Source of the DNA: Nesterenkonia sp. E16_10
GTDB lineage: Bacteria; Actinomycetota; Actinomycetes; Actinomycetales; Micrococcaceae
DNA length: 64,000 nucleotides
Direction: 5' to 3'
NCBI RefSeq assembly: GCF_017347085.1
Contig: NZ_JADPSA010000042.1
Span: 62,001-126,000, forward strand
Below, piece after piece: positions 5,146 through 23,791 of this stretch. The stretch's first letter is position 1; every line of letters begins with the position of its first letter. Below the pieces are notes generated by a model, which was given only the letters and a program-made list of their open reading frames with translations, was not told where the DNA came from and did not search any database. A program made the translations under genes and the position numbers.

Positions 5146-5214
5146 GCCGCACTCCACGCGGACCCAGCGCCGCACGCCACGCGGACCCAGCGCCGCACGC
5201 CACGCGGACCCAGC
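5146..5214. repeat. Three tandem copies of a 23-bp unit
   Basis: Units at 5146-5168, 5169-5191 and 5192-5214 differ at one base. The array starts directly after the lyase stop codon and is followed by a GCCTGCG/CGCAGGC hairpin at 5226-5245. It is not in an open gene. Confidence 0.85.
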
Positions 5215-5278
5215 GCCGCTCGCTCGCCTGCGCCCCAGCGCAGGCTCCCCGCACCGCCCGAAAGGTGACCCACTCACG

Positions 5279-7010: not shown

Positions 7011-8390
7011 ATGAGCACAGCAGCACCCACGGCCACGCAACGACGCCGCGGCTCCACCCTGATCTACCTCTTCGGCGCCCTTGGTGGGCTGAACTGGGGC
7101 TATGACACCGGAGTGATCTCTGCGGCGCTGGTGTACCTGCGTCGGGACTTCGAGCTGAGCAGCTGGGCCGAAGGTGGGATCGTCACCGGGCTGATGATCG
7201 GCGCCGCCATCGGGGCCTGCCTGGGCGGCGGGCTCTCCGACCGCTATGGCCGGCGGGCGGTGCTGCTGATCACCGCCGCGCTGTTCCTGGTCGCTCCGCT
7301 GGGGATGGCCTTCGCGCCCAACGCCGAGGTGCTCTTCGCCGCCCGGCTGGTGGTCGGGCTCGGCACCGGCCTGGCCGCCGTCGTGCTCCCGGTGTATCTC
7401 TCCGAGATCGCTCCGGCGCGGATCCGTGGCAGGGTCACCGCCTCCTATGTGATGGCGATCGTGATCGGGCAGTTCCTCGGGTTCGTGGTCGGGGTGGCCT
7501 TCGCCCCGGTGGAGTCCTGGCGCTGGATGCTGGGCCTCTCGGTGATCCCCTCGGTGCTCTTCGCGCTGGGGCTCACCGTGGTGCGTGAGACCCCGCGCTG
7601 GCTGGTCCACCGCGGCCGGGAGGCCGAGGCCGAGGCGATGCTGCTGCGCGACCGGACCCCCGAGGAGGCCCGCCGGGAGCTCGGTGAGATCCACGAGGTC
7701 CACGAGGTGGAACAGCGCGAGGGCGTCACCGGTCTGCGCGCGCTGCGTCGGCCCTGGGTGCTCTCGATCCTCGGGGTGGGCTTCGGGCTCGGGGTCTACC
7801 AACAGGTCATGGGCATCAATGCGGTGCTCTACTACGCGCCCACCACCTTGCAGAACGTCGGCTTCTCCGATGAGGGAGCGATCGGCTCCAACCTGATCAT
7901 CGGGGCGCTGAACATCGCCGCGGTCTGGATCGCGATCCGCTACACCGACCGCTGGGGACGGCGCCCGATGCTGCTGATCGGTGCCCTGGGCACCTCGCTG
8001 GCGCTCGCGGTGCTCGCCGTGGTGAACCTGGCCATGCCGGCCCCCGAGGGGCTCGGTGCGCTGGGCATCGCCACCCTGTCCTGCCTGGCCGTGTTCATCT
8101 TCATGTTCCAGGTCAGCTGGGGGGCTCTGGTCTGGGTGGTGCTCGGAGAGATCTTCCCGCTGGGTGTCCGGGCCGCCGCGATGGGCGTGGTCACCACGGC
8201 GCACTGGCTGGCCAACGGTCTGGTCTCGCTGCTGTTCCCGACCGCACTCGCCGCCTTCGGCGTGGGCTGGATCTTCGCCGGGTTCTCCCTGATCTGCTTC
8301 ACTGCCTTCCTCTTCACCTGGAAGAAAGTCCCGGAGACCAAGGAGCGCACGCTGGAACAGATCGAGACCGCGTTCCGCCGGGCCGGCTGA
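7011..8390 (+). CDS. MFS sugar porter (proton-coupled)
   Basis: 459 residues, 12 predicted membrane segments. ATG 7011 is preceded by AGGAGAG. Sugar-porter signatures are all present: GGLNWGYDTGVISAAL in helix 1, GGGLSDRYGRR, PVYLSEIAPARIRGR, RETPRWLVHRGR, QQVMGINAVLYYAPT in helix 7, DRWGRRPMLLIG, GEIFPLGVRAAAMG, and PETKERTLEQIE after helix 12. It imports a hexose, pentose or polyol in symport with protons. The substrate cannot be assigned; it stands alone before the hydroquinone operon. Confidence 0.9.
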   Translation: MSTAAPTATQRRRGSTLIYLFGALGGLNWGYDTGVISAALVYLRRDFELSSWAEGGIVTGLMIGAAIGACLGGGLSDRYGRRAVLLITAALFLVAPLGMAFAPNAEVLFAARLVVGLGTGLAAVVLPVYLSEIAPARIRGRVTASYVMAIVIGQFLGFVVGVAFAPVESWRWMLGLSVIPSVLFALGLTVVRETPRWLVHRGREAEAEAMLLRDRTPEEARRELGEIHEVHEVEQREGVTGLRALRRPWVLSILGVGFGLGVYQQVMGINAVLYYAPTTLQNVGFSDEGAIGSNLIIGALNIAAVWIAIRYTDRWGRRPMLLIGALGTSLALAVLAVVNLAMPAPEGLGALGIATLSCLAVFIFMFQVSWGALVWVVLGEIFPLGVRAAAMGVVTTAHWLANGLVSLLFPTALAAFGVGWIFAGFSLICFTAFLFTWKKVPETKERTLEQIETAFRRAG

Positions 8391-8458
8391 ACCCCCGAGA
8401 GGTCGACGCTGACCAGCACCGACGCCCGGAACCAGCGGTGCTCTCAACCGCCGAACCC

Positions 8459-8489
8459 TTGACAGTGAATATGGCCTCCACCACATAAT
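8459..8489 (+). promoter_or_regulatory. Promoter of the maleylacetate reductase operon
   Basis: TTGACA at 8459-8464 and CATAAT at 8484-8489, spacer 19 nt. The palindromic operator begins 6 nt after the -10 box, at the expected transcription start. Confidence 0.6.
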
Positions 8490-8495
8490 GGCCCT

Positions 8496-8509
8496 CGGAC
8501 AGCTGTCCG
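8496..8509. promoter_or_regulatory. Operator box 1: CGGAC-AGCT-GTCCG
   Basis: Perfect palindrome (16 bp if the flanking T and A are counted) just downstream of the -10 box. The same half-sites and 4-nt spacing recur at 12805, 15148 and, with one change, 15026. Confidence 0.7.
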
Positions 8510-8570
8510 AATCTTGCGGCGCCCTTGCAGCGTCGGCAGTCCCGACTCCGCCGCGAGAGGAGAGGTCCCT

Positions 8571-9674
8571 ATGACCATGAGCTTCAGCCACCAGACCCTG
8601 GGTCAGCGGGTCTGCTTCGGCGCCGGAAACCTGACCACCGATGTGCGCGGCGAGACGAAGCGTCTCGGCGCCCAACAGATCCTGCTGATCGCCTCCGGCA
8701 GTGCGCAGCGCGCGGCCGATGAGCTCCATGCCACGCTGCGCATCGCCCACCGGCTCGACGGCGCCCGGCAGCACGTCCCGGTGGAAGAGGTGGAGCTGGC
8801 CTGTGATGCCGCGACCCAGGCCGAGGCGGATCTGATCCTGTGCGTGGGCGGGGGCTCCGCCATCGGGCTCGGCAAGGCCGTCGCCCTGAAGACCCGGGTC
8901 CCGATCCTGGCGGTGCCCACCACCTACGCGGGCTCGGAGGCGACCAATGTCTGGGGCGTCACCGAGGCCGGTGCCAAGGCCACCGGAGCCGACGACGTGG
9001 TCCTGCCGAGAACCGTGGTCTACGACGCCGAGCTGGTGCGTGACCTTCCGGCCGAGCTGGCCAGCGCCTCGGGGATGAATGCGCTGGCCCACTGCATCGA
9101 CTCCTTCTGGGCTCCCCATGCGGATCCGCTGAACCGCCTGGCGGCGGAGGAAGCCATCCGGGCCCTGAGCCGGGGGATGGCACAGTCCGCCGCGGCCCCG
9201 AGCCGCAGCCTCGAAGCGAGCCAGCAGCTGCAGTACGGCGCCTATCTCGCCGCCACGGCCTTCGCCTCGGCCGGCTCGGGTCTGCACCACAAGATCTGCC
9301 ATGTGCTGGGCGGATCCTTCGGCCTGCCGCACGCGCAGACCCACGCCGTGATGCTGCCCCATGTGCTCGCCTTCAATCTGGGGTCAGCCCCGGAGGCCGG
9401 GGAGCGCATCGCGGCGGCGCTGGGAGCCGCAGACCCGCTCGAGGGGCTCACCGGGCTGCGCGCCCAGATCGGAGCCCCGCACGCGCTGCGCGACCACGGA
9501 CTCAAGGAGGCGGACCTCGAGCGCGCCGCAGAGCTGATCCTCGGCGTCGTCCCGGCCAGCAACCCGCGCGAGATGACCCTCGAGGACGCCGCTCAGCTGA
9601 TCCGCGCCGCATGGGCCGGCGGTGACCCCGCCACAGATCTCTTCAGTCACAGATCGCAGCAGTCACTTCTATAG
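8571..9674 (+). CDS. Maleylacetate reductase (iron-containing alcohol dehydrogenase family)
   Basis: 367 residues; ATG 8571 follows AGAGGAGAGG. Reduces maleylacetate to 3-oxoadipate with NAD(P)H, the step after ring cleavage of hydroxyquinol or chlorohydroquinones. Seen: FGAGNLTTDV at the N terminus, nucleotide loop CVGGGSAIGLGKAVAL, AVPTTYAGSEATNVWGVTE, the metal/active-site ASGMNALAHCIDSFWAPHADP, and GSGLHHKICHVLGGSFGLPHAQTHAVMLPHVLAFN, which in this subfamily replaces the classical iron ligands. First gene of an operon with a PcpA/MhqO-type dioxygenase (12-nt gap) and an MhqD-like hydrolase, which strongly supports the call over a generic alcohol dehydrogenase. Confidence 0.9.
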   Translation: MTMSFSHQTLGQRVCFGAGNLTTDVRGETKRLGAQQILLIASGSAQRAADELHATLRIAHRLDGARQHVPVEEVELACDAATQAEADLILCVGGGSAIGLGKAVALKTRVPILAVPTTYAGSEATNVWGVTEAGAKATGADDVVLPRTVVYDAELVRDLPAELASASGMNALAHCIDSFWAPHADPLNRLAAEEAIRALSRGMAQSAAAPSRSLEASQQLQYGAYLAATAFASAGSGLHHKICHVLGGSFGLPHAQTHAVMLPHVLAFNLGSAPEAGERIAAALGAADPLEGLTGLRAQIGAPHALRDHGLKEADLERAAELILGVVPASNPREMTLEDAAQLIRAAWAGGDPATDLFSHRSQQSLL

Positions 9675-9686
9675 AAGGGCACCATC

Positions 9687-10646
9687 ATGACGTATCTGCT
9701 CGGCTCCCACCACGTGACGCTCTCCGTGGGCAAGGCCCAGGAGGACGTGGACTTCCACACCAAGGTCTTGGGCATGCGGTTCATCAAGAAGACCGTGCTC
9801 TACGACGGCTCCATCCCGATCTATCACCTCTACTATTCCAACGCCAACGGTGATCCCTCCGCCGTGGTCACCACGTTCCCCTGGGCGCAGCAGGGCCGCT
9901 TCGGCACCCGGGGCACCAACCAGGCCCGCGAGGTGATGCTCGCGGTGCCTGCCGGCTCACTGGACTTCTGGGCGCAGCGACTGGGCTCGATGCAGATCGA
10001 GCATCAGCAGTCGGAGCTCTTCGGCGAACGACGCCTGGCGTTCAACCACCCCTGCGGACTCGAGTACGTGCTGGTGGGCGTGCACGGGGACACCCGGGTG
10101 GGACACCCCGGTCATGGGGTACCGCCGGAGCACGCGGTGCATGGGATCTACGGGATGGGCATCCACGTCTACGACCAGGACCGGATGGTCGACTTCGCCA
10201 AGGACGTGTTCTTCCTCGGCGGGGAGATCGCCGAAGCCGGCGACGTGGCTCGGTTCAAGGTCGGCTCCGATGAGTTCGGCAACTGGGTCCAGCTGCGCGG
10301 CAACCGCACCGATGACCAGGGCACCTGGCGCTTCGCCGCGGGCACCTACCACCACTTCGCCTGGAACTTCGACACCCTGGAGAACCAGGAGGCCTCGAAG
10401 TTCGAGATCGAGGGTGCCGGCTACACCGACATCTCCGAGCTGAAGGACCGCACCTACTTCAAATCCCACTATGTGCGCACCCCCGGCGGGGCGCTGTTCG
10501 AGCTCGCGGTGACCCACGCCGACGGCGGCTGGGACTGCGACGAGTCCCCCGAAGAGCTCGGCCAGAAATTCATGCTGCCTCCGCAGTTCGAGCACGAGCG
10601 CGAGCACATCATGTCCCAGCTCGAACCGCTGAGCGTGGACGACTGA
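9687..10646 (+). CDS. mhqO: Ring-cleaving hydroquinone dioxygenase, VOC superfamily (PcpA/LinE/MhqO type)
   Basis: 319 residues made of two glyoxalase/VOC modules. Likely Fe(II) ligands are His9 (SHHVTLSV), His223 (TYHHFAWNF) and Glu272 (GALFELAV), near the published PcpA positions 11, 227 and 276. PcpA and LinE split (chloro)hydroquinones to acyl chlorides or maleylacetate; Bacillus MhqO handles methylhydroquinone and quinone stress. Being directly after maleylacetate reductase points to catabolism of a hydroquinone rather than to detoxification alone. RBS AGAAGGG. The gene is coupled to the hydrolase 6 nt downstream. Symbol by family resemblance only. Confidence 0.85.
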   Translation: MTYLLGSHHVTLSVGKAQEDVDFHTKVLGMRFIKKTVLYDGSIPIYHLYYSNANGDPSAVVTTFPWAQQGRFGTRGTNQAREVMLAVPAGSLDFWAQRLGSMQIEHQQSELFGERRLAFNHPCGLEYVLVGVHGDTRVGHPGHGVPPEHAVHGIYGMGIHVYDQDRMVDFAKDVFFLGGEIAEAGDVARFKVGSDEFGNWVQLRGNRTDDQGTWRFAAGTYHHFAWNFDTLENQEASKFEIEGAGYTDISELKDRTYFKSHYVRTPGGALFELAVTHADGGWDCDESPEELGQKFMLPPQFEHEREHIMSQLEPLSVDD

Positions 10647-10652
10647 TCCGCC

Positions 10653-11300
10653 GTGCCCACCCATGACCAGCTTGCTCTGGTGCACCACGGTGTCGCCGCC
10701 GAGGACGCCCGCATCGTGGTGTACGGGGTCCACGGTCGCACCCAGAGTCCCCAGTTCTTCATCGACCTCGCCGCACGCCTGGAGCTGGAGGGGGTCTGCT
10801 GGTGGCTGCCCGCCGCAGCCGACCACTCCTGGTATCCGGGGAAGTTCATGGAACAGCTGGAGGCCAACCAGCCGCAGCTGGACCAGGCGCTGGGGGTGAT
10901 ACAGGACCAGCTCTCCCAGCTGCTCCAGGCGCGCGACGCCGGAGGCGCCCCGGTGGTCGTCTTCGGCTTCTCCCAGGGTGCGTGCCTGCTGGCCGAGCAC
11001 CTGCTGGTCTCACAGCCCGGGGTCGACGGCGCCCTGCTGCACACCGGCGGCTACCTGGGCCCGAGGCCGCGCAGCTTCGCTCCGGCGCCCGACCCTGGGC
11101 TCAGCGGACTCGCGGTGGAGCTGTTCTGCGCCGACGAGGACCCCTGGGTGCCGCTGCACCGGGTCAAGGACACCGCCGCGGCGTTCGAGGGTCTGGCCGG
11201 AGTGACCACGCTGAGCGTGTACCGCGACGAAGAGCATCACATCACCGAGGACGCAGCCGCCCGGATCCGCGAGTACCTCACCCGGCGCGCCCGGGCCTGA
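10653..11300 (+). CDS. mhqD: MhqD-like alpha/beta hydrolase (phospholipase/carboxylesterase family)
   Basis: 215 residues from GTG 10653, 6 nt after the dioxygenase stop. Nucleophile Ser107 lies in GFSQGACL; Asp follows in FCADEDPWVP and His in RDEEHHITED, the usual triad of the YpfH/MhqD esterase group. In Bacillus mhqO and mhqD form an operon induced by hydroquinones. Here it may hydrolyse a ring-cleavage ester, acyl chloride or lactone; the substrate is not known. No good Shine-Dalgarno is seen, so translation probably depends on the preceding gene. Confidence 0.8.
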   Translation: MPTHDQLALVHHGVAAEDARIVVYGVHGRTQSPQFFIDLAARLELEGVCWWLPAAADHSWYPGKFMEQLEANQPQLDQALGVIQDQLSQLLQARDAGGAPVVVFGFSQGACLLAEHLLVSQPGVDGALLHTGGYLGPRPRSFAPAPDPGLSGLAVELFCADEDPWVPLHRVKDTAAAFEGLAGVTTLSVYRDEEHHITEDAAARIREYLTRRARA

Positions 11301-11331
11301 GCCCGCGGGTTCCTGGTGCCTCGGCGGGCTC
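11299..11331. terminator. Convergent terminator hairpin GAGCCCGC/GCGGGCTC
   Basis: 8-bp arms at 11299-11306 and 11324-11331, 17-nt loop, overlapping the stop codons of both convergent genes. Confidence 0.55.
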
Positions 11332-12310
11332 AGCGCAGCTCGTGCGCCAACCGCTGGATCGCCGCCGGGCCCACCAGGTCCCCGGAGAGCAGCGGCAGCC
11401 TGTCCACCGGCACCCCGGGCATCAGCTCGGTCAGGGAATCAAGGTGCCGCTGCTCCTGGGCTCGGCGCTGCGCCAGGTACTCCCCGGCGTCGGTGGGGGA
11501 GAGCCGATTGACCACCAGCCCACCGACCTCCACGCCGGCCTCGCGCAGCTGGGCGCAGAGCGCCACCGATTCCAGGACCGGCAGCCGCTCGGGGGTCAGG
11601 ACGATCACGAAGCTGCAGGTCTTCGGGTCGGAGAGGACCTCGCGCATCATCTCAAACCGCGCCTTCCGCCGGGTCAGCACCTGACGGATCCGCTGGTCGC
11701 GGTTGCTCGGAGAGGTCTTGGCGGGGTCGTCCTCACCGTCGAGGACCCGCACCGCGGCCCCGAAGCGCTCGGCCTTGCTGCGCCGGGTCAGCAGCCCCGA
11801 CATCCAGGTGGACATGATCTCCGGAAGCGCCATCAGCCGGGCGGTATGCCCGGAGGGCGCGGTGTCGAACACGATCAGGTCGTGGGAGTCCAGGCCGTAT
11901 TCGATCAGCACCGCGATCCGTTCCAGGATGGCTGACTCATGGGTGCCCGGTGACTGGGCGGAGAGCTTCAGGTGCGCGGCGACCTGGGGGTGGAGGTGCT
12001 CGGGCATGAAATCGCGCAGGTTGGCTCCGACCTCGGCGAGATGTTCATCGATGGTGCGCTGCGGGTCGATCTCGATGCCGCGCAGGACTCCGCCGGAGCA
12101 CTCGCTGCGGTAGAGCTCCACCGGGTCATCGCCCACGGTCTGGTCCCACAGGTGGCCCAGGTTGTGCGCGGGGTCGGTGGAGACCAGCAGCACCCGTCGG
12201 CCGGCGGCCGCCTGGTGCAGCGCCACGGCCGAGGCGGTGGCCGTCTTGCCCACCCCGCCCTTGCCGCCGAGGAACAGCACCCGGCGTCGTTCAATCAGGT
12301 CCAGCAGCAT
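11330..12310 (-). CDS. ArsA/GET3-family anion-transport ATPase
   Basis: 326 residues, single ATPase domain. Deviant Walker [13 protein letters not shown] (about 15-26), switch [13 protein letters not shown] and [16 protein letters not shown] are all present. ATG 12310 has AAAGGA upstream. It directly follows a cory-CC-star gene, an arrangement known from other actinobacteria, where the pair's role is unknown. No arsB or arsR is nearby, and the Cys triad of true arsenite ArsA proteins is not evident. Membrane-protein targeting or anion-coupled transport are both possible. Confidence 0.85.
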
Positions 12311-12325
12311 CGGTACCGAGTCCTT

Positions 12326-12682
12326 TCAGCAGCAGCCGAGTCCGTCCATCGGGGAGCGCTCCAGCCCCTGACGGGTGTGCCATTCATGCATCCGGTCGAG
12401 CATCTCGGGCAGCAGCTCCAGGGTCATCCCGGAGGCGGGGTTCGGCAGGCCCAGCGCCTCGGAGAGCACCAGCATCATGAACAGGTCCTCCTCGTCGCGC
12501 TTGGCGCGGGCGAAGACCCGGCGATAGGGGGCGACGTAGAACTCATGGAGCCCGGCGTTGAATCGCTTCCACAGGCTCGCCGACTCGCCGACCCTGGCCC
12601 CAGAGGAGCTGGGATCCCGTGGTCGCTGGTGCTGTGGTCGCGGATCCTGCGGAGGAGGGTCCTGCCCGGCTGAGCTTGAGAC
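12326..12682 (-). CDS. cory-CC-star protein with no canonical start codon
   Basis: The frame ends in GLGCC and stop, the hallmark of the family. Conserved EFYVAPYRR, DEEDLFMMLVLSEALGLPNPAS, TLELLPEMLDRMHEWH and ERSPMDG all read in one frame. The frame is open back to the TGA at 12712-12710, but no ATG, GTG or TTG occurs upstream of the conserved core. An ideal ribosome site (AAAGGGG) stands 6 nt before a GTC codon at 12682-12680, exactly where GTG would be expected. Either GTC replaces GTG, or there is a base error or frameshift. About 118 residues. Same operon as ArsA, 15-nt gap. Confidence 0.75.
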   Translation of the reverse strand, partial: VSSSAGQDPPPQDPRPQHQRPRDPSSSGARVGESASLWKRFNAGLHEFYVAPYRRVFARAKRDEEDLFMMLVLSEALGLPNPASGMTLELLPEMLDRMHEWHTRQGLERSPMDGLGCC

Positions 12683-12766
12683 GGTGTTCCCCTTTCCCGC
12701 ATGAACCGGTCATCTCGTGTGAGGCACCTCATGCTACGCCAGAGCGGTCAGCCGGTGCTGAAATCC

Positions 12767-12795
12767 TTGACGCGGGAAGCCGCCAGGGTGACACT
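12767..12795 (+). promoter_or_regulatory. Promoter of doxX
   Basis: TTGACG at 12767-12772 and GACACT at 12790-12795, spacer 17 nt. The operator palindrome begins 9 nt after the -10 box. Confidence 0.5.
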
Positions 12796-12804
12796 GGACT
12801 CCAT

Positions 12805-12818
12805 CGGACACGCGTCCG
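12805..12818. promoter_or_regulatory. Operator box 2: CGGAC-ACGC-GTCCG
   Basis: Same 5-bp arms and 4-nt spacing as box 1, between the doxX -10 box and its start codon, the same geometry as at 8496. Confidence 0.65.
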
Positions 12819-12835
12819 CATGATGAAAGGTGATC

Positions 12836-13357
12836 ATGGACATCGGTCTGCTGCTGTTGCGCCTGGTGCTGGCGCTGATCCTCTTCACCCATGCCGCCCA
12901 GAAGCTCACCGGCTGGTTCGGCGGCAACGGGCTGCGCCGCCAGGGGGAGATCTTCGCCTCCCTGGGCCTGCATCCGGGCCGCGGAATGGTCCTGGCGGCG
13001 GGCCTCTCCGAGCTCATCGCCGGCGGCCTGCTGCTGCTGGGACTGCTCACTCCGGTCGGGGCGCTGCTCGCGACCGCGACCATGCTGGTGGCCGGGGTGA
13101 CCCTGCAGCTGAACTCCGGGAACTTCTGGAACGTCGCGGGAGGCGGGGAGTACCCCTACGTGCTGGCCGCGGCCGCCGCCGTGCTGGGATTCACCGGGGC
13201 CGGAGCCTATTCGCTGGACGCCGCGCTGAACGGAGCCGCGTGGGCCACGCTGGTCCAGGAGCCCGCCGCCTGGGTGGGCATCCTGGTGGTGCTCGCGGCG
13301 CTGGCGGGGGCGACGCCCTTTGCTCTGGTGGTCCGCCGCGCCGCCGGCGCCCGCTGA
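12836..13357 (+). CDS. DoxX-family membrane protein
   Basis: 173 residues, four or five membrane segments. ATG 12836 is preferred over the in-frame GTG at 12830 because AAAGG lies 5 nt before it. Typical DoxX pieces are LLLRLVLALILFTHAAQKLTGWFGG, GLxPGRGMVLAAGLSELIAGGLLLLGLLTP and GEYPYVLAAAAAVLGFTGAGAYSLDA. DoxX proteins often accompany quinone or thiosulfate chemistry, and one role is in membrane detoxification of oxidants. It shares an operator with the hydroquinone operon, suggesting a part in the same response. Confidence 0.85.
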   Translation: MDIGLLLLRLVLALILFTHAAQKLTGWFGGNGLRRQGEIFASLGLHPGRGMVLAAGLSELIAGGLLLLGLLTPVGALLATATMLVAGVTLQLNSGNFWNVAGGGEYPYVLAAAAAVLGFTGAGAYSLDAALNGAAWATLVQEPAAWVGILVVLAALAGATPFALVVRRAAGAR

Positions 13358-13367
13358 CCCGCGGGCC

Positions 13368-13435
13368 GGCAGCACCGCACGGCTGGCAACACCGCACGGC
13401 TGGCAACACCGCACGGCTGGCAACACCGCACGGCG
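13368..13435. repeat. Four tandem copies of a 17-bp unit
   Basis: Units at 13368-13384, 13385-13401, 13402-13418 and 13419-13435 (core GGCAACACCGCACGGCT, one or two changes in the outer copies). It lies between convergent doxX and the amidohydrolase. Confidence 0.85.
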
Positions 13436-13477
13436 GGCCGCACCGCCACCGCCACCGCAGCCCGCCGCACCGCCGGC

Positions 13478-14968
13478 TCAGGCCTCCGGGCCTCTGCCCT
13501 GGGCGGTGTGGGTCTTCTCGGTGCGGTATTCGGTGTAGGTGTACGGGTTGTCCAGGATCTTGGTCTCCGGGACGTCGGGGCTCATGCCGGCCTCCCACTC
13601 AGCCTGTCCCAGCTCGGAGGCGATGTGATCCACCGTCGCCTCCACGGTGCGGCGCACCTTGGCCAGGTCCACGTCCACCAGCTTGTGCTGATGCTTCACG
13701 ATCCGGCCGTTGACCATCACGGTGTGCACATCCCCGCGCTGAGCCTGAAAGACCACGTGGCCGTGCGGGTTCAGGATCGGGAACATCGCCGGGGAGTCGT
13801 CGTTCTTGATCAGCACGATGTCGGCCTTCTTGCCGACCTCCAGGGAGCCGATGGACTTCTCCATCCCGAGCGCCTCGGCGCCGCCATGGGTGGCCCAGCC
13901 GACCACCTGGTCGGCGCGCAGGCCCAGGTTGGTGCAGGTCTCTCCGGTGGCGTGATGCTCGAAGTGCTCGCGCGCCCTGTCCGAGCTGAGCGTGGAACGC
14001 ATCGCTGCGAACGGATCTGCGCTCCACCAGACCGAGGTGTCCACCGAGAGTGAGACCGGGATCCCGTGCCTGCGCAGCTGCCAGGACGAGGGATAGCCCT
14101 GCCCGCAGCTGGACTCGGACTCCGCCGAGACCGAGGCCGAACCTCCGGTGGCGGCGATGCGCTGATAGGAGTCCTGGTTCAGCGTCGCGGCGTGGACGTA
14201 GACGGTCTTCTCGTTCATGAATCCGTGCTCGTGCATGAGTCGGATGCCGTCGTCGTTGGTCGCGCCCCAGACCCCGGCGTGGGTGGTGACGCCTACGCCC
14301 AGGTCTCGGGCGACCTCGAAGGCCTTCTGCTCCGGGAACTCCGGGTCGCCGGTGACGTCGAAGGCCATCTGGAAGCCGAGCATGTCATCGCCGAGCTGGC
14401 CGCCCGAGCGCGGGATCCGGCGGTCCACGAAGTCGCGGAACTCACGCGAGGCGGACCATTCCCAGGGTCCTGCGTGGATGTTGCCATAGGCGAAGACGAA
14501 GCGGCCGGCGACCTCTTGGAGCGCGTCCACGGCCGCATCGGCGTGGTCCACGGTGGAGAGTCCGTGAGACCAGTCCACCGAGGTGGTGACCCCGGAGTCG
14601 ATGGCCTCCACCGCGGAGAGCAGGTTACCGGCGTAGATGTCCTCGGGGCGGAACCTCTTGCCGTGTTCGAGGTAGTTCCAGACGAAGTACTGGGTCAGCG
14701 TCCAGTCCGCGCCGTAGCCCCGCATGGCGGTCTGCCACATGTGCCGGTGCGTGTCGATGAAGCCTGGAGTGATCATCCCGCCCTCGGCGTCGATCACCTG
14801 GGCGTGCTCGGGTGCCTGGAGATCCGGGCCGATGGCCGCGATGGTGTCACCCAGGACCAGGACGTCGCCCCTGGTCAAGACGCTGTGCTGCTTGTCCATG
14901 GTCAGCACGATCCCGTTCTTGAACAGGACGGGCGCGCCGGTGCCATTGGATGCGGCTTCAGAACTCAT
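13478..14968 (-). CDS. Metal-dependent amidohydrolase/deaminase (TRZ/ATZ-like)
   Basis: 496 residues. ATG 14968 is chosen over ATG 14980 because GGAGG lies 6 nt before it. The fold is a TIM barrel with a small beta domain (LFKNGIVLTMD at the start, KADIVLIKNDD and VMVNGRIVKHQHKL at the end). Metal ligands: HRH in DTHRHMWQT, His in TTHAGVWG, His in YVHAATLN, Asp in SLSVDTS. Related enzymes deaminate or dechlorinate heteroaromatics, or open cyclic amides. It is divergent from the CaiB/dioxygenase operon and carries the same operator type, so it may feed that pathway. The substrate is unassigned. Confidence 0.85.
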   Translation of the reverse strand: MSSEAASNGTGAPVLFKNGIVLTMDKQHSVLTRGDVLVLGDTIAAIGPDLQAPEHAQVIDAEGGMITPGFIDTHRHMWQTAMRGYGADWTLTQYFVWNYLEHGKRFRPEDIYAGNLLSAVEAIDSGVTTSVDWSHGLSTVDHADAAVDALQEVAGRFVFAYGNIHAGPWEWSASREFRDFVDRRIPRSGGQLGDDMLGFQMAFDVTGDPEFPEQKAFEVARDLGVGVTTHAGVWGATNDDGIRLMHEHGFMNEKTVYVHAATLNQDSYQRIAATGGSASVSAESESSCGQGYPSSWQLRRHGIPVSLSVDTSVWWSADPFAAMRSTLSSDRAREHFEHHATGETCTNLGLRADQVVGWATHGGAEALGMEKSIGSLEVGKKADIVLIKNDDSPAMFPILNPHGHVVFQAQRGDVHTVMVNGRIVKHQHKLVDVDLAKVRRTVEATVDHIASELGQAEWEAGMSPDVPETKILDNPYTYTEYRTEKTHTAQGRGPEA

Positions 14969-15025
14969 GTCGGCCTCCATTGAAGATCTCTGTGATGGTG
15001 CTCACGATAGCGGCCGTTCGCACAG

Positions 15026-15039
15026 TGGACAAGGGTCCG
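15026..15039. promoter_or_regulatory. Operator box 3: TGGAC-AAGG-GTCCG
   Basis: One change from the CGGAC-N4-GTCCG palindrome. On the minus strand it lies between a TCGACA and a CACTGT box that could drive the amidohydrolase gene. Confidence 0.5.
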
Positions 15040-15103
15040 TTTACCTGTCGAGGTTGATCGCGAGGGGTTCATTCTAGGGACTTCCGGCCAGGTGGGCCTG
15101 GGG

Positions 15104-15133
15104 TTGACGGCCGCGCGCATGCGGTGTGAAACT
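15104..15133 (+). promoter_or_regulatory. Candidate promoter of the CaiB/LigAB operon
   Basis: TTGACG at 15104-15109 and GAAACT at 15128-15133, spacer 18 nt, 15 nt upstream of operator box 4. Confidence 0.4.
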
Positions 15134-15147
15134 GGTCACGAGATAAG

Positions 15148-15161
15148 CGGACGAGTGTCCG
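15148..15161. promoter_or_regulatory. Operator box 4: CGGAC-GAGT-GTCCG
   Basis: Perfect 5-bp arms with 4-nt spacing, upstream of the CoA-transferase start at 15223. Fourth member of the shared operator set. Confidence 0.65.
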
Positions 15162-15222
15162 TATGACGACGCATTCGGGCGTGACGTGGCCTGTGTGGGA
15201 CTCGCAGAAGGAGAACTCCGAG

Positions 15223-16512
15223 ATGAGCCAGCACCATCCAGAGGAGACCGGCGCCGGAGGTGCCCGGCCCGGAAGCGATGCCGGCGCACAGGCCGAGCAG
15301 GCGCATCGGGCCGGGCAGTCAGGCGGGAGCCTGCCGCTGGAGGGAATCCTGATCGCGGACTTCTCCCGGGTGCTCGCCGGTCCCTACGCCACCATGCTGC
15401 TCGCGGACCTCGGCGCCGAGGTGATCAAGGTCGAGGGCACCGGTGGAGACGACACCCGGACCTGGGTCCCGCCCCGGCGTCCGGACGGGGTCTCCACCTA
15501 CTACGCCTCGATCAATCGCAATAAGAAGTCGATCGTGCTGGACTTCAAGGACACCGAGGACCTCGCCGCCGCCCAGGCCCTGGCGCAGCGCGCCGACGTC
15601 GTGATCGAGAACTTCAAGCCCGGCGGACTCAAGAAGTTCGGCCTGGACTACGACTCGGTGGCCAAGGCCAACCCGCAGGTCATCTACTCCTCGATCACCG
15701 GCTTCGGCACCGAGGGTGAGGGGGCGAAGTACCCCGGCTATGACCTGATCGTCCAAGCCATGTCCGGGCTGATGAGCCTCACCGGCTCACCGGACGGCCC
15801 GCCCTACCGTGCTGGGATCAGCGTCTTCGATGTGATGGCCGGGCTGCATTCGACCATCGGCATCCTCGCCGCGCTGCGCCAGCGCGACCGCACCGGCGAG
15901 GGCGCCCACGTCGAGGCGTCCCTGATGGCCTCGGCCATGTCCGGGCTGGTGAACCAGACTCACGCCTACGTGGGCGGCGGCACCACCCCGATGCGGATGG
16001 GCAACGCCCACCCCTCGCTCTACCCCTATGAGGCCATGCCCACCGCCGACGACGACGTGATCATCGCGGCCGGCAACAACACCCAGTTCAGCAGGCTCTG
16101 CACGGTGCTGGGGATCCCAGAGATCGCCCAGGACGAGCGTTTCGCCGAGGTCGGAGACCGCACCGACCGCCGTGACGAGCTGCGCCCGATCCTGGAGGCC
16201 GAGCTGGCCAAGCACACCGCCCAGGAGCTCTTTGAGAAGCTCAACGACGTCGGGGTGCCCTGCGGACCGATCAACACCATCAAGCAGGGGGTCGAATACG
16301 CCGAGGCGCTGGGCCTGCGGCCGGTGGTGCAGGTGGGCACGGGAGACAGCGCCGTCCCCGGGGTCCGGCACCCGCTGAGCTTCAACACCATGACCCCGCG
16401 CTATGACCTGGCCCCGCCGGAGCTGGGGGAGCACACCGAGGAGATCAAGGCCTGGCTGAAGCAGCCGGCGCCCACGCGCAGCGGGCAGGGCCCCGCCGAG
16501 AGGACCCGATGA
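15223..16512 (+). CDS. CaiB/BaiF (type III) CoA-transferase
   Basis: 429 residues. ATG 15223 has GAAGGAGA upstream. Transfers CoA between carboxylic acids through an aspartyl-CoA adduct; the nucleophile should be Asp174 in KYPGYDLIVQAMSGLMSLTG. Also seen: DFSRVLAGPYATMLLADLGAEVIKVE near the N terminus, NRNKKSIVLDFK, and GVPCGPINTI. The first 35 residues are Ala/Gly/Glu-rich and probably disordered. It overlaps the next gene by 4 bp. Next to a citryl-CoA-lyase-like gene, it probably makes the CoA ester that the lyase splits. Confidence 0.9.
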   Translation: MSQHHPEETGAGGARPGSDAGAQAEQAHRAGQSGGSLPLEGILIADFSRVLAGPYATMLLADLGAEVIKVEGTGGDDTRTWVPPRRPDGVSTYYASINRNKKSIVLDFKDTEDLAAAQALAQRADVVIENFKPGGLKKFGLDYDSVAKANPQVIYSSITGFGTEGEGAKYPGYDLIVQAMSGLMSLTGSPDGPPYRAGISVFDVMAGLHSTIGILAALRQRDRTGEGAHVEASLMASAMSGLVNQTHAYVGGGTTPMRMGNAHPSLYPYEAMPTADDDVIIAAGNNTQFSRLCTVLGIPEIAQDERFAEVGDRTDRRDELRPILEAELAKHTAQELFEKLNDVGVPCGPINTIKQGVEYAEALGLRPVVQVGTGDSAVPGVRHPLSFNTMTPRYDLAPPELGEHTEEIKAWLKQPAPTRSGQGPAERTR

Positions 16513-17348
16513 TGAGCACCCCAGCACACGAGGATCAGACACCGAGCTACCCCACCTCGCTGGGAACCTCCACCACCGAGGAGATCAGCCTGATGGGGCA
16601 GTCCCTCTCGGAGGATCTGATGGGCAAGGTCGGATTCGCCGAGCTGGCCTTCTGGATGACCGCCACCCGCCGGCCCACCCCCGGTGAGCTGCGGACCTTC
16701 GAGGCGGTGCTGGTCGCGCTGGCCGATCACGGCTTCACCCCCACGGCCATCGCCGCCCGGCTGACCTACCTCTCGGCCCCGGAGTCCATCCAGGGCGCCA
16801 TCGCCGCCGGACTGCTCGGCGGCGGCTCCCGCTTCCTCGGGGTCACCGAGGACACCGGGAAGTTCCTGCACCAGGTGCTCGAGGCCGACGACGGCGAGCG
16901 CAGCACCGAGGCGGACTACGACGCCCTGGCGCGTGAGGCGATCACCCGGGCACGGGCCGCGAAGCAGATCGTTCCCGGCCTGGGCCATCCGGTGCACAAA
17001 CAGGGTGACCCGCGCACCCCACGGCTGATCCAGATCGCTGAGGAGGGCGGGACCCGCGGCGAGCACCTGCGCCTCTTCGAGGCCATGGGCCGGGTCAGCG
17101 AGGAGGTGCTGGGCAAGAAGCTTCCACTCAACGGCGCCGGGGTCTGCGGTGCGGCCCTTGCTGACCTGGGGCTTCCGGTGGACTTCCTGCGCGGCTTCGC
17201 GCTGCTCGCCCGCACCGCCGGGCTGCTGGGGCAGATCGCCGAAGAGCGGCGGAACCCGATCGCGAACGACATCTATATGCATGTGGACCGCAACGCCAGG
17301 TTCGTCCCGCCGACCGGCGAGGACGCCGGCGAGTCGAAGGGGAACTGA
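16509..17348 (+). CDS. Citryl-CoA lyase-like protein (citrate synthase superfamily)
   Basis: 279 residues, roughly the C-terminal two thirds of a citrate synthase, as in stand-alone citryl-CoA lyases. Active-site-like segments: LADHGFTPTAIAARLTYLSAPESIQGAIAAGLLGGGSRFLG (substrate His), PGLGHPVHKQGDPRTPRL, and NGAGVCGAALADLGLPVDFLRGFALLARTAGLLGQIAEE. It would split citryl-CoA or an analogous tricarboxylic CoA ester to a 2-oxo acid and acyl-CoA. ATGA overlap with the CoA-transferase, 2 nt before the LigB gene. The placement suggests it works on a ring-fission product, an inference. Confidence 0.8.
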   Translation: MMSTPAHEDQTPSYPTSLGTSTTEEISLMGQSLSEDLMGKVGFAELAFWMTATRRPTPGELRTFEAVLVALADHGFTPTAIAARLTYLSAPESIQGAIAAGLLGGGSRFLGVTEDTGKFLHQVLEADDGERSTEADYDALAREAITRARAAKQIVPGLGHPVHKQGDPRTPRLIQIAEEGGTRGEHLRLFEAMGRVSEEVLGKKLPLNGAGVCGAALADLGLPVDFLRGFALLARTAGLLGQIAEERRNPIANDIYMHVDRNARFVPPTGEDAGESKGN

Positions 17349-17350
17349 AC

Positions 17351-18322
17351 ATGGCAGAGCTGACCGCGGTGCTGGCGAGCACCCACCACCCGTTCTACTA
17401 CAAGGCCACCACCTCCCCGGAAGACCAGCGACCGCCCTATGCCGCGGACTGGCAGCGCAAGGTCGAGGCCTACCGCGAGACGCTCACCGCCGCGGAGCCC
17501 GACATCCTGGTCATGGTCGGGGCGGATCACTTCCACCAGCTCTGGCTGGACAACTATCCGCAGTTCCTGATCGGCAAGCAGGAGAGATACGACGCGACCT
17601 TCTACAACGAGGAGCGCGAGTTCGGGATCCCGAAGTACACCCTCGCCGGGGACATCGAGCTCTCCCGCTATATGCACGAAGAGCTGCTGGGCAAGGACTT
17701 CGACTTCGCGGTCAGTCACGAGCTGAAGATCGATCACTCGATCATCTGCCCGATCATCACGGTCCGTCCCGAGGCGGACCTGCCGATCGTGCCGATCTAC
17801 ACGAACATCTTCGTGCCCCCGCTGCCCTCCCCGCGCCGGTTCTACCAGGTGGGACGGGCCATCCGGGAGATCATCGACAGCTTCCCCAGCGATAAGAAGG
17901 TCGCCGCCATCGGCACCGGACACCTCTCGCTGGAGCTCGGCGGACCCCGCCAGTTCGGCGAGCACGGACCCGATCCGCTCTTCGACGCCGACGCGATCGA
18001 ATGGCTCTCCACCGGCAACATCGACGCGATCCTGACCAATGTCACCCACGAGTCAATGGCCGGGGCCGGCAACGCCACCCACGGATTCATGGACCTGCTG
18101 CTGATGATGGGCATCGCCGGCCCCGGGGTCCACGCCGACTACGTCGATCACCTGGATCTGTTCCACACCCGGGAGATGTACATGACCTGGTACCCGAACA
18201 AGACCAGGGGTCAGCTCGACGCGGCTGCCCGGGCCGCGGCGACCGCGCGGGCCAGCACCGGTCCGATCTACGCCACCGACCCGGCCTGGGAGAAGTTCCG
18301 CGTGAATCAGGAGCAGGCATGA
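17351..18322 (+). CDS. Class III extradiol ring-cleavage dioxygenase, catalytic (LigB-type) subunit
   Basis: 323 residues; AAGGGG lies 7 nt before the ATG. LigB-type proteins bind Fe(II) through two N-terminal His and a Glu and open catecholic rings next to the hydroxyls. Seen: ASTHHPFYY (His12/His13), MVGADHFHQLWLDNYP, SHELKIDHSIICPI (catalytic His region), PIVPIYTNIFVPPLPSPRRFYQVG, IGTGHLSLELGGPR and NATHGFMDLL. The small LigA-like subunit follows with a 4-bp overlap, as in protocatechuate 4,5-dioxygenase. The exact ring substrate is unknown. Confidence 0.88.
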   Translation: MAELTAVLASTHHPFYYKATTSPEDQRPPYAADWQRKVEAYRETLTAAEPDILVMVGADHFHQLWLDNYPQFLIGKQERYDATFYNEEREFGIPKYTLAGDIELSRYMHEELLGKDFDFAVSHELKIDHSIICPIITVRPEADLPIVPIYTNIFVPPLPSPRRFYQVGRAIREIIDSFPSDKKVAAIGTGHLSLELGGPRQFGEHGPDPLFDADAIEWLSTGNIDAILTNVTHESMAGAGNATHGFMDLLLMMGIAGPGVHADYVDHLDLFHTREMYMTWYPNKTRGQLDAAARAAATARASTGPIYATDPAWEKFRVNQEQA

Positions 18323-18684
18323 GCAAGTACTACGTCAACAAGTTTCTCTTCACCATCGATCGGGACCCCGAATGGGTGGCCCGCTATCGCGAGGACCCCC
18401 GGGCCACCGTGGTCCGCTGGGAGAAGGAGATCGGGCGCTGGCTGAATCCGGTCGAGCAGACCAGCTGGCTGGAGTTCACGCATCAGGAGCGCGAGGCGCT
18501 GGCCACCCACGACTACGTGTGGCTCTTCGAGCATGGCGCCCATTTCTTCCTGAACCTGACCCTGTTCATCGCGCTCTTCGACGAGGAGTACGCCGCCGCG
18601 AAGGGGCCGCTGGCGTTCCAGACCGAGATGGTGCGGAAGCTGGGCCACTGGACCGGAAGGGACTACCCCTCGGTGGCGATGTGA
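18319..18684 (+). CDS. LigA-like small subunit of extradiol dioxygenase
   Basis: 121 residues, ATG overlapping the LigB stop (ATGA). All-helical. It shares the LigA order: an N-terminal YYVNKFLFTIDRDPEWVARYREDP helix pair, then LTxxER-type FTHQEREALATHDYVWLFEHGAHFFLNLTLF corresponding to the LigA stretch that caps the active site. Slightly shorter than LigA (about 139). It probably closes the active site and sets specificity of the preceding subunit. Confidence 0.75.
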   Translation: MSKYYVNKFLFTIDRDPEWVARYREDPRATVVRWEKEIGRWLNPVEQTSWLEFTHQEREALATHDYVWLFEHGAHFFLNLTLFIALFDEEYAAAKGPLAFQTEMVRKLGHWTGRDYPSVAM

Positions 18685-18727: not shown

Positions 18728-19579
18728 TCACTCCTGCGGTGAGGCCAGCAGCGGGAGGCGCCCGAGGTCTGCGGAGTCGCGCTCGCGGGTGTGGCGGGGC
18801 AGCGACTGCCAGCGGGTCCAGTCCGCGGTGACCGCAGCGGCGGCCTCGCGCAGCGGGGGCAGGTGCTTGCTCAGCAGCGTCTCCACGCTGGTCTCCGCCG
18901 CGTGGACCGTGGTGTTCATCGAGGCCAGCACCCGGCCGTAGGCATCCCGGACCGGCACGGCGATGGACCGGATGCCCCGGGCCAGCTCCTCATCGGCCAG
19001 AGCGTAGCCCTGCCGCTGCACCCGGTCGAGCTCCTCGAGGAAGGACTTCTGGTCCCACTGCACCACCGGGACCACCGAGGAGCGTGACGGGTCGGAGAGC
19101 CGCTGCAGGATCTCCCGGCGCTCCATATCGGCCAGCAGCACCTTGCCCTGGGAGGTCGGCGGCGCCGGGAAGCGGGTACCGATGTCCACCCGCAGGCCGA
19201 TCAGCTTGGGCACCGCGACACGGGCCACGTAGACGATGTCGGGGCCGTCCAGCTGGGACATCGAGGCCGATTCATGGGTGTGGGTCACCAGCGACTCCAG
19301 GTGCGGCTTCGCCACGTCCCAGAGCCCCAGCGAGCTCACATAGGCCATGCCCAGCTCCATCACGCGGGGGGTGAGCGAGAAGAGCCCGTCGTCGGAGCGC
19401 ACGTAGTCCAACTCTTGAAGCGTCATCAGGATTCGCCGCGCGGTCGGACGCGCCAGGTCGGTGGCCTTGGCCACCTGGCTCAGGGTCAGGCCTGCGGGGT
19501 ACTCCGGGGTGAATGCCTTGATGACGGACAGCCCGCGGGAGATGGCTTCGATGAACTCGGGGCTTCGCTCCGGTGACAT
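18728..19579 (-). CDS. IclR-family transcriptional regulator (PcaR/PobR-like)
   Basis: 283 residues; ATG 19579 follows AAAGGA. Winged helix at about 10-75 (SRGLSVIKAF, LTLSQVAKATDLARPTARRILMTLQELDYV), then the IclR effector domain (TSQGKVLLADM, GYALADEELARGIRSIAVPVRDAYGRVLASMN). Regulators of this branch respond to aromatic acids and control their catabolism. It is convergent with the LigAB operon and 10 nt downstream of the GntR gene, so both regulators are one transcript. The likely target is the CaiB/LigAB operon or its neighbours. Confidence 0.88.
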   Translation of the reverse strand: MSPERSPEFIEAISRGLSVIKAFTPEYPAGLTLSQVAKATDLARPTARRILMTLQELDYVRSDDGLFSLTPRVMELGMAYVSSLGLWDVAKPHLESLVTHTHESASMSQLDGPDIVYVARVAVPKLIGLRVDIGTRFPAPPTSQGKVLLADMERREILQRLSDPSRSSVVPVVQWDQKSFLEELDRVQRQGYALADEELARGIRSIAVPVRDAYGRVLASMNTTVHAAETSVETLLSKHLPPLREAAAAVTADWTRWQSLPRHTRERDSADLGRLPLLASPQE

Positions 19580-19589
19580 CTGGTTCCTT

Positions 19590-20282
19590 TCAGTGGAGCT
19601 GGGTCTGCTGCTGGTCGGCACGGGCTTCACGCAGTCGGGTCCAGGTCCGCACGAGCTGGCTGAACTCCTTGACCTGCACCAGGACATGGTCCCGGGCGGT
19701 GTTCTCCGCGGTCTCGCCGTCACCGGTGCTGATCGCATTCACGATCGCGAGGTGCTCGGCCAGGGAACGGCGCATCCGGTCCGGGGCGCGGAGCTGGAGT
19801 CGTCGGTAGGGCTGCAGCACGCGGCGCAGGTGGTGGGCCTGCTGGCGCAGGTACCCGTTGCCGCAGGAGTCATAGATGATCCCGTGGAACCAGGCATTGG
19901 CGTAGTAGTAGCCGTCGGCGTCGCCCAGGGCCTCGAATCGTTCGCATTCCTTCAGCGCCTTGCCGAGTTCGGCCAGGGGCTCACGCTCGATGCGCCGTGA
20001 GGCCAGTCGGGCCGCCATGCCCTCCAGCTCGGCCATCAGCTCGAAGCGCTCGGCCAGCTCGGGCAGGCTCAGCTCGGTGACATAGGTGCCCTGCTTGGGG
20101 CGGATGCGCACCAGCCCAGAACGCTCCAGGGCCTGCAGCGCCTCGCGCACCGGGGTGCGCGAGCAGCCGAACTCCTGCTGCAGCTTGGCAGGGTCCAGCC
20201 GCTCGCCGGGACCGTACTGCCCGTCGACGATGGCGTTCTCCAGCGCATCGCGCACGCGCTGGGATTCCGGGACTCTGACCAT
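19590..20282 (-). CDS. GntR-family (FCD) regulator, probably of malonate use (MatR-like)
   Basis: 230 residues. ATG 20282 is preceded by AGGAGGTGCC; the upstream in-frame ATG at 20303 has no ribosome site. N-terminal winged helix (VRDALENAIVDGQYGPGERLDPAKLQQEFGCSRTPVREALQALERSGLVRI) and a C-terminal all-helical FCD effector domain with His-bearing helices (NAWFHGIIYD, AEHLAIVNAI). Divergent from the malonyl-CoA decarboxylase/synthetase operon, as matR is from matABC in rhizobia, so it most likely senses malonate or malonyl-CoA. Confidence 0.85.
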   Translation of the reverse strand: MVRVPESQRVRDALENAIVDGQYGPGERLDPAKLQQEFGCSRTPVREALQALERSGLVRIRPKQGTYVTELSLPELAERFELMAELEGMAARLASRRIEREPLAELGKALKECERFEALGDADGYYYANAWFHGIIYDSCGNGYLRQQAHHLRRVLQPYRRLQLRAPDRMRRSLAEHLAIVNAISTGDGETAENTARDHVLVQVKEFSQLVRTWTRLREARADQQQTQLH

Positions 20283-20353
20283 GGCACCTCCTGTGACGAG
20301 CATATCGCCAGCGGCAAGGTGTGGCCTGGATCACGTTCTTGCTCTATAGTTCC

Positions 20354-23346: not shown

Positions 23347-23388
23347 ATGCTGGCTCAAGACACTTCAACCGCAAGTCAGGAGTAGACG

Positions 23389-23790
23389 ATGGTTCTCTAT
23401 GGAGTCGCAGCGCTGGCGCTGTGCATGCTCGTGGGAATGCTGATCGGTGATGTCCTCGGGGTCGCCGTAGGAGTCGACGCGAACGTCGGCGGGGTCGGCT
23501 TCGCCATGATCCTGCTGGTCGTGGCCACCGACCGGCTGCGCAAGCGAGGCCTGTTCCCGAAGCCCACCGAACAGGGCGTGCTGTTCTGGTCCGCGCTGTA
23601 CATCCCGATCGTGATCGCCATGGCGTCCACGCAGAACGTCGCCGAAGCGATCGGCGGCGGACCGATGGCCGCGATCGCCGGCCTGGGGGCGCTCGCCGCG
23701 GGCGCCGCCCTGGTGCCGGTGATCTCACGCATCGGAGGACAGTCTGAACCGCTGCCCGCGATGACCGAGGCAGAGAAGGCGGAGGCCTGA
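23389..23790 (+). CDS. madL: Malonate transporter subunit MadL
   Basis: 133 residues, four membrane helices, AGGAG before the ATG. MadL and MadM together make the sodium- or proton-dependent malonate carrier. Seen: LALCMLVGMLIGDVLGVAVGVDANVGGVGFAMILL, FWSALYIPIVIAMASTQNVAEAIGGGPMAAIAG, both typical of MadL. 42 nt after the fused MatAB gene and 1 nt before madM, so one operon. Confidence 0.92.
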   Translation: MVLYGVAALALCMLVGMLIGDVLGVAVGVDANVGGVGFAMILLVVATDRLRKRGLFPKPTEQGVLFWSALYIPIVIAMASTQNVAEAIGGGPMAAIAGLGALAAGAALVPVISRIGGQSEPLPAMTEAEKAEA

Positions 23791-23791
23791 G

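Follow-up and report, generated by a model that had tools for sequence, protein, structure and literature searches.

The window analysed here is a 64,000-nucleotide stretch of Nesterenkonia sp. E16_10 (contig NZ_JADPSA010000042.1, positions 62,001 to 126,000). It contains a catabolic gene island in which one palindrome, CGGAC-N4-GTCCG, precedes four transcription units: an operon of maleylacetate-reductase-like, mhqO and mhqD genes, the doxX gene, an amidohydrolase gene, and an operon of CaiB, citryl-CoA lyase, LigB and LigA genes. The four palindromes are very probably operators of a PobR/PcaU-like IclR-family protein encoded in the same island (18731..19579, minus strand), which would repress all four units until an aromatic ligand relieves it. 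The sites, their conservation, a third box and the co-occurrence of regulator and motif were computed, and from these we infer binding, the sign of regulation, the ligand and the order of events. The regulon is of a known kind, the IclR three-box regulon for aromatic catabolism, and this particular one is probably new, being named in no paper among the literature matches listed, which draw little on subscription journals and do not extend to the supplements of PMC8222616.

Palindromes in the window and the genome

The initial annotation of this DNA reported exact palindromes at 8496-8509, 12805-12818 and 15148-15161 and a copy with one change at 15026-15039, and all four were verified. It had noticed no further copy, which is true of exact matches in the window; several more one-mismatch matches are present. 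The three exact copies of CGGACNNNNGTCCG (CGGAC-N4-GTCCG) compare with a mean of 0.36 and a maximum of 2 in shuffled sequence, and none of 100 shuffles reached three or more. A position matrix built from 117 sites in other genomes, among them close relatives but not the window, ranks the four sites first, at 8496 (20.1 bits), 15148 (19.9), 12805 (18.8) and 15026 (13.5), with the fifth match in the window at 10.5 bits. Looser patterns do not rise above chance. With up to two mismatches, 79 matches were found in the window, below the chance mean of 102.9, and CGGACRNNYGTCCG at no more than one mismatch was found four times, a number reached by 23 of 100 shuffles. The signal therefore rests in the exact sites and in their conservation.

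The whole 3.3 Mb assembly holds ten exact copies, compared with 24 for a reversed-pattern control. Six are coding and four intergenic, and three of the intergenic copies lie within the 6.7 kb of the island. This split comes from a heuristic caller of open reading frames (ORFs), which put all seven non-island copies in coding sequence; the copy at C24:24900 is counted as intergenic because, on reading, it is located 47 bp before a likely ATG. Frequent random intergenic copies, the finding that the initial annotation had named as fatal to its regulon, did not emerge from the genome scan.

Conservation among relatives

A search with LigB gave 139 relatives, from which the best 80 loci were kept; some are ended by contig ends, and the locus counts lean to close relatives and carry no phylogenetic correction. 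In the CaiB upstream regions of other genomes (n = 69, from loci where the CaiB homologue reaches 50% identity and the upstream DNA suffices), the palindrome is exact in 59, has one mismatch in 4, and takes neither form in 6. Two controls on the CaiB upstream regions bear on these numbers. Among 29 permuted palindromes, the CGACG version reaches 16 and all others at most 1, and the CGGAC palindrome with spacers of 0-3 and 5-8 likewise gives at most 1. Loci with the exact site include Nesterenkonia, Arthrobacter, Occultella, Microbacteriaceae and Geodermatophilus, and further Modestobacter, Nocardioides, Streptomyces, Micromonospora and Kribbella.

The remaining units follow the same pattern to different depths. 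An amidohydrolase of at least 60% identity is present in 63 loci; a site lies upstream of it in 48, and in 44 this site is distinct from the one nearest CaiB. The doxX box is exact in five of five relatives (L028-L032), with a different N4 in each. The mhqO gene is present in 10 of 30 Nesterenkonia genomes, and the box before its operon is exact in all eight that also encode an orthologue of the IclR protein (the window's own genome included) and in neither of the two that do not. As a separate observation, a gene for a CstA-like carbon starvation protein sits between the amidohydrolase and its operator in N. alba (L033:5995-7719).

A probable three-box operator

Alignment of the sites reveals an extra conserved box, CGGNCA, at +19 to +24. 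At +19 it is perfect in 43 of the relatives' 116 sites, and each of the remaining offsets between 14 and 44 gives 4 perfect boxes at most; at 4/5 letters the numbers are 73 vs at most 13. This comparison of offsets has to serve as the only control, since CGGNCA was derived from the tested sites. With this conserved third box the operator reads CGGACA-N2-TGTCCG-N5-CGGNCA, its three boxes alternating in direction. Of the 59 CaiB-proximal sites, 28 have the third box downstream of the palindrome and 6 upstream; of the 48 amidohydrolase-proximal ones, 33 have it upstream and 4 downstream.

This architecture can be compared with known IclR systems. In the survey by Suvorova and Gelfand (2021; PMC8222616), IclR operators comprise group 1 pairs, GKTYCRYW3-4RYGRAMC, and group 2 pairs, TGRAACAN1-2TGTTYCA, and 32 of 181 IclR orthologous groups have three alternating boxes that, as in the sites described here, join group 2 and group 1 pairs. 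The same source gives a PobR site, TTGTCCGATSATCGGACAR, that holds TGTCCG-N5-CGGACA. In our operator, boxes 1 and 2 have the layout of a group 2 pair, and boxes 2 and 3 have that of a group 1 pair and carry the half-site of PobR. The resemblance to PobR and PcaU of Acinetobacter baylyi extends to family and site (PMC8222616): both belong to the IclR family and regulate aromatic catabolism, PobR has the half-site TGTCCG...CGGACA, and the palindrome is accompanied by a further box, a third one that PcaU needs in order to bind. The window differs from them in that its third box is largely decayed. PcaR of Corynebacterium glutamicum is likewise an actinobacterial IclR regulator of aromatic catabolism, but its site, GTTCGC-N3-GCGAAC, differs in half-site and spacing (PMC8222616). 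Two Agrococcus metagenome-assembled genomes (MAGs; L059:6353, L061:5586) carry CGGAACACTGTTCG before CaiB, a variant closer to the group 2 consensus.

The linked IclR protein as the proposed owner

The proposed owner is read from an ORF that is open to 19738, with a likely start at 19579. Its membership of the IclR family is clear, with the N-terminal HTH domain PF09339 at 47.9 bits (cutoff 22) and the C-terminal effector domain PF01614 at 113.8 bits (cutoff 24). The best NCBIfam model is TIGR02431 pcaR_pcaU, at 255.6 bits and under the cutoff of 284.75, so that on sequence the protein is PobR/PcaU-like and is not filed as a TIGR02431 member. Among its relatives of solved structure, the Pca-regulon regulator 8eju ranks third of 17 (E 5.1e-46).

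Three lines of evidence point to this protein as the owner of the palindrome: the three-box architecture, the half-site identical to that of PobR, and the co-occurrence of regulator and motif. On the last point, the IclR protein is the sole regulator among the families found in more than six of the 80 loci, present in 53 by clustering and in 65 by tblastn at 45% identity or above. The other families of that frequency are LigB, CaiB/lyase, the amidohydrolase, the LigA-like subunit, a zinc-binding dehydrogenase, DoxX, and one family that has no Pfam match and lies on a LigA-antisense frame. Where the IclR match reaches 45%, the exact site is present in 58 of 65 loci, compared with 3 of 15 elsewhere (Fisher p 2.8e-7, relatedness ignored). 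These 15, six of which are shorter than 14 kb, divide into five with a distant IclR, none of which has the exact site, and ten with none in the fetched stretch, three of which have it. Among the 30 Nesterenkonia genomes, the IclR orthologue (at least 69% identity) and LigB (at least 81%) are confined to the same 13.

Several observations weigh against this assignment. Over whole loci, CGACG palindromes outnumber CGGAC ones, 159 vs 119, so that the specificity of the CGGAC form resides in the upstream regions. Seven of the 65 IclR-positive loci have no exact site: in L049, L054 and L069 the sites upstream of CaiB or IclR differ at one position, L057 has such a site upstream of IclR, the two Agrococcus loci L059 and L061 have their CGGAAC variant before CaiB, and L034 has none, CaiB being lost there. 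Conversely, a check of the genomes behind the three IclR-less loci with an exact site, which covered L045 and L067 and left out L085, found that L067 bears the site in a MAG that holds no IclR above 31%, and that the IclR match of the L045 genome (58%) lies on a contig equal in length to that of L045, outside the fetched stretch and with no site in the surrounding 14 kb. The IclR gene of the window has no clear box of its own, the match at 20448 lying in a coding frame. None of the four sites of the window has a strong third box (2/5 letters at CaiB, 3/5 at the amidohydrolase, 1/5 at mhq and doxX), so that the three-box form describes the site family of the relatives, is weak at the CaiB and amidohydrolase sites of the window, and is lacking at its mhq and doxX sites; in L033, L035 and L036 the CaiB site has a perfect third box (CGGTCA). 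Finally, the two mhqO genomes that have no IclR orthologue are weak controls because their assemblies are poor. The G015 assembly reaches 62% completeness; its mhqO is broken into three pieces, and a two-mismatch remnant of the mhq box is left. The mhqO of G018 is divided between contigs: CGAACAGTTGTTCG lies near the gene, and a one-mismatch match is confined to the far side of the other mhqO piece. On the G018 contig C89 (L164:239-252), where the differing palindrome CGAACAGTTGTTCG is found, mhqO adjoins genes for an intradiol dioxygenase, an iron-containing alcohol dehydrogenase and an FAD hydroxylase.

Promoters and the sign of regulation

The initial annotation placed the first two boxes just after a -10 box. 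By eye, this reading stands: CATAAT, GACACT and GAAACT precede the boxes at 8496, 12805 and 15148 by 6, 9 and 14 nt. It finds no support in a strict sigma-70 scan of 8380-15300, which returned no promoter. Two candidate promoters were read from the sequence. Candidate promoter 1 (8459..8489, plus strand) consists of TTGACA at 8459-8464, a 19 bp spacer and CATAAT at 8484-8489; CATAAT beside the box is conserved in L029-L032, and TTGACA is not visible in those loci. Candidate promoter 3 (15104..15133, plus strand) consists of TTGACG at 15104-15109, an 18 bp spacer and GAAACT at 15128-15133. Box 4 also lies near a candidate promoter, as had been proposed: read by eye on the minus strand, its TTGTCC can serve as the -35 hexamer of TTGTCC-N17-TATCGT (15004-15009). 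The view that one operator type links four transcription units holds up, with a placement that is usual for repressor sites.

In the relatives, the -10-like string ANACT occurs within -30..-2 of 37 of 59 CaiB-proximal sites and on the opposite side of 6 of 59. At CaiB this pattern speaks for repression by occlusion, and the case of the amidohydrolase is less settled. Without inducer, the IclR protein would sit over or just past the core promoter and would block the CaiB/citryl-CoA lyase/LigBA, amidohydrolase, doxX and maleylacetate-reductase-like/mhqO/mhqD units; it would then be released by an aromatic ligand, which is probably either a substrate of the hydroxybenzoate type or an intermediate of ring cleavage. 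Repression of all four units with an aromatic inducer is most likely, and a common inducer, as the initial annotation predicted, is plausible. PobR/PcaU-type proteins sense hydroxybenzoates or protocatechuate, which makes hydroquinone only one inducer candidate.

Two points count against repression. ANACT is not enriched at the amidohydrolase-proximal sites (3 of 48, vs 6 on the other side), and PobR and PcaU are activators in Acinetobacter, according to titles among the references of PMC8222616. An IclR protein that owns the boxes and activates, or that acts with opposite signs at different promoters, is the strongest competitor, and we consider it unlikely, at perhaps one chance in five. The best named model of the protein, PcaR/PcaU/PobR, would fit activation, and the side of the third box differs between CaiB and amidohydrolase sites, hence the geometry differs too; the ANACT strings upstream of the CaiB-proximal sites and the overlap of box 4 with a -35-like hexamer are, on the other hand, typical of repression. 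The genes also differ: PobR and PcaU activate hydroxybenzoate and protocatechuate genes, unlike the LigB, CoA-transferase, citryl-CoA lyase, amidohydrolase and mhq genes found here under what is probably repression.

Other owners and chance copies

The initial annotation had regarded an unlinked TetR- or MarR-type repressor as the likely owner. A short perfect palindrome by itself suits many regulator families, and our survey of regulators covers the fetched stretches only. The conserved third box at +19 and the half-site shared with PobR are, however, IclR features, and no other regulator family exceeds 6 of the 80 loci, the count of a Cro/C1-HTH cupin protein. No TetR or MarR protein was found among the 22 most widespread families of the 80 loci, in a family search that covered part of them and linked genes only. 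Given the architecture and the co-occurrence, an unlinked repressor is not needed and is improbable; this evidence points to the linked IclR protein.

Similarly improbable is that only the CaiB and amidohydrolase boxes are operators and that the mhq and doxX boxes are chance copies. The latter two have no third box and are seen only in Nesterenkonia, but their outer bases stay constant while N4 varies (doxX has five different N4 in its five relatives, and mhq is exact in all eight genomes), and both adjoin -10-like strings. The linked GntR/FCD protein (19590-20303) has next to no chance of being the owner. The initial annotation saw no obvious owner in it or, in our reading wrongly, in the IclR protein. 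Its gene stands immediately ahead of the IclR gene in the window, yet it adjoins a malonate operon (malonyl-CoA decarboxylase, MadL, MadM), has homologues of at least 80% in six of nine Nesterenkonia loci and in no other locus (elsewhere five matches of 27-34%) while the boxes are widespread, and is present without a box in L034, though CaiB is also lost there. The malonate operon itself (20398-24553) encodes a fused malonyl-CoA decarboxylase/AMP-binding protein, MadL and MadM, with the GntR gene divergent. A one-mismatch palindrome, CGGGCACAGGTCCG (20448-20461, 7.7 bits), is found within the frame of a malonate gene, 145 bp ahead of the GntR start.

Proposed growth of the regulon

The distribution of the boxes suggests that the proposed regulon has grown stepwise, from a CaiB/LigAB and amidohydrolase core through the doxX unit to a recruited mhq operon; the order is our interpretation. 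The CaiB and amidohydrolase sites would be the old core, common to many actinobacteria. In L033, L035 and L036, doxX and the amidohydrolase gene are neighbours with the same orientation, and in L040 the two genes come after LigB; in the clade of the window, doxX has a box of its own. The mhq operon occurs in part of the genus only, and its box therefore looks like recruitment; it would have joined in part of Nesterenkonia. The MhqR regulon of Firmicutes, under a MarR-family regulator, also controls mhq-type genes, and thus has these genes in common with the present regulon and differs in the family of the regulator.

Through this analysis, a set of aromatic-catabolism genes that recurs in Nesterenkonia, Geodermatophilus, Nocardioides, Streptomyces and Micromonospora gains a proposed regulator and an operator code. 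Tentatively, and with somewhat less than even expectation, we suggest that this PobR-like actinobacterial regulon may run an undescribed ring-cleavage route, of LigAB cleavage, CaiB CoA transfer and citryl-CoA-lyase-type cleavage, to which Nesterenkonia may have added a hydroquinone-type mhq branch with two-box operators. Because the operator is distinctive, it can serve as a search key for further genes of the pathway, and the natural sites of a single genus make two-box vs three-box binding by IclR proteins testable.

Further exact palindromes in Nesterenkonia genomes

The fourth intergenic copy of the genome (G000:C24:24900-24913; L003:1501-1514) lies 47 bp before the ATG of a Gfo/Idh/MocA oxidoreductase. 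Eight of nine clade genomes carry it in exact form, the N4 varying between them, and the ninth carries it with a single mismatch; a scan of nine more distant orthologues (L179-L187), two of them from genomes with the IclR orthologue, did not find it. In eight of nine cases it stands beside a second palindrome, AGAC-N4-GTCC/T, and the element recurs about 4.4 kb away with the palindrome decayed. We excluded this site from the regulon: the recurring intergenic element and the second palindrome indicate that another factor may own it. The copy at C5:49161, intergenic by the heuristic, was dropped as it lies within a 314-codon ORF, and the candidates at C16 and C42:33603 (L017, L022) were left out of the regulon analysis. 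Six more Nesterenkonia genomes have nine exact sites that are intergenic by the heuristic beyond the island and the oxidoreductase. The three inspected, before an ATPase-domain protein (L229), a sigma factor (L232) and a protein with no Pfam match (L236), have no visible link to the island; L202, L209, L216, L233, L235 and L237 were left out of that inspection.

Genes under the four proposed operators

Operator 1, CGGACAGCTGTCCG (8496..8509), has two boxes, the third being absent, and precedes the maleylacetate-reductase-like/mhqO/mhqD operon. The names 'maleylacetate reductase' and mhqO are labels taken over from the initial annotation. The first gene (8571..9674, plus strand, start chosen by eye) encodes an iron-containing alcohol dehydrogenase family protein (PF00465, PF25137). 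It is followed on the same strand by an mhqO-like glyoxalase-superfamily protein (9687..10646; PF00903 at 34.8 bits, without an NCBIfam match) and an mhqD-like hydrolase of the phospholipase/carboxylesterase family (10653..11300; PF02230 at 28.4 bits). Operator 2, CGGACACGCGTCCG (12805..12818), also with its third box absent, precedes the gene for a DoxX family membrane protein (12836..13357, plus strand, PF07681).

Operator 4, CGGACCCTTGTCCA (15026..15039, minus strand), has a weak third box, CGAACG, on the gene side, and precedes an amidohydrolase of the PRK08204 subfamily (13478..14968, minus strand; PF01979; NCBIfam NF006056 at 401.5 bits, cutoff 391). At the amidohydrolase site, TGGACAAGRGTCCG is conserved in eight of nine Nesterenkonia loci, L034 being without it. 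Operator 3, CGGACGAGTGTCCG (15148..15161), with its third box eroded to CGACGC, precedes the CaiB/citryl-CoA lyase/LigB/LigA operon, whose genes all lie on the plus strand. The CaiB-type (family III) CoA-transferase (15223..16512, PF02515) likely starts at 15223 and not at 15163; by eye, AGAAGGAG precedes 15223. The citryl-CoA lyase family protein follows (16509..17348; NCBIfam NF004868 at 294.5 bits, cutoff 193), and then the LigB-type class III extradiol dioxygenase (17351..18322, PF02900), whose best match among solved structures is gallate dioxygenase 3wku (E 2.3e-20). The LigA-like small subunit (18316..18684) scores 20 bits with PF07746 LigA, below the cutoff of 25.3, and its family is found in 30 of the 80 loci.

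Two tandem repeats are also present in the window. One lies directly 3' of doxX (13364-13446; period 17, 4.9 copies), and the other spans the 3' end of an HpcH/HpaI-family gene and the sequence beyond it (5146-5223; period 23, 3.4 copies).

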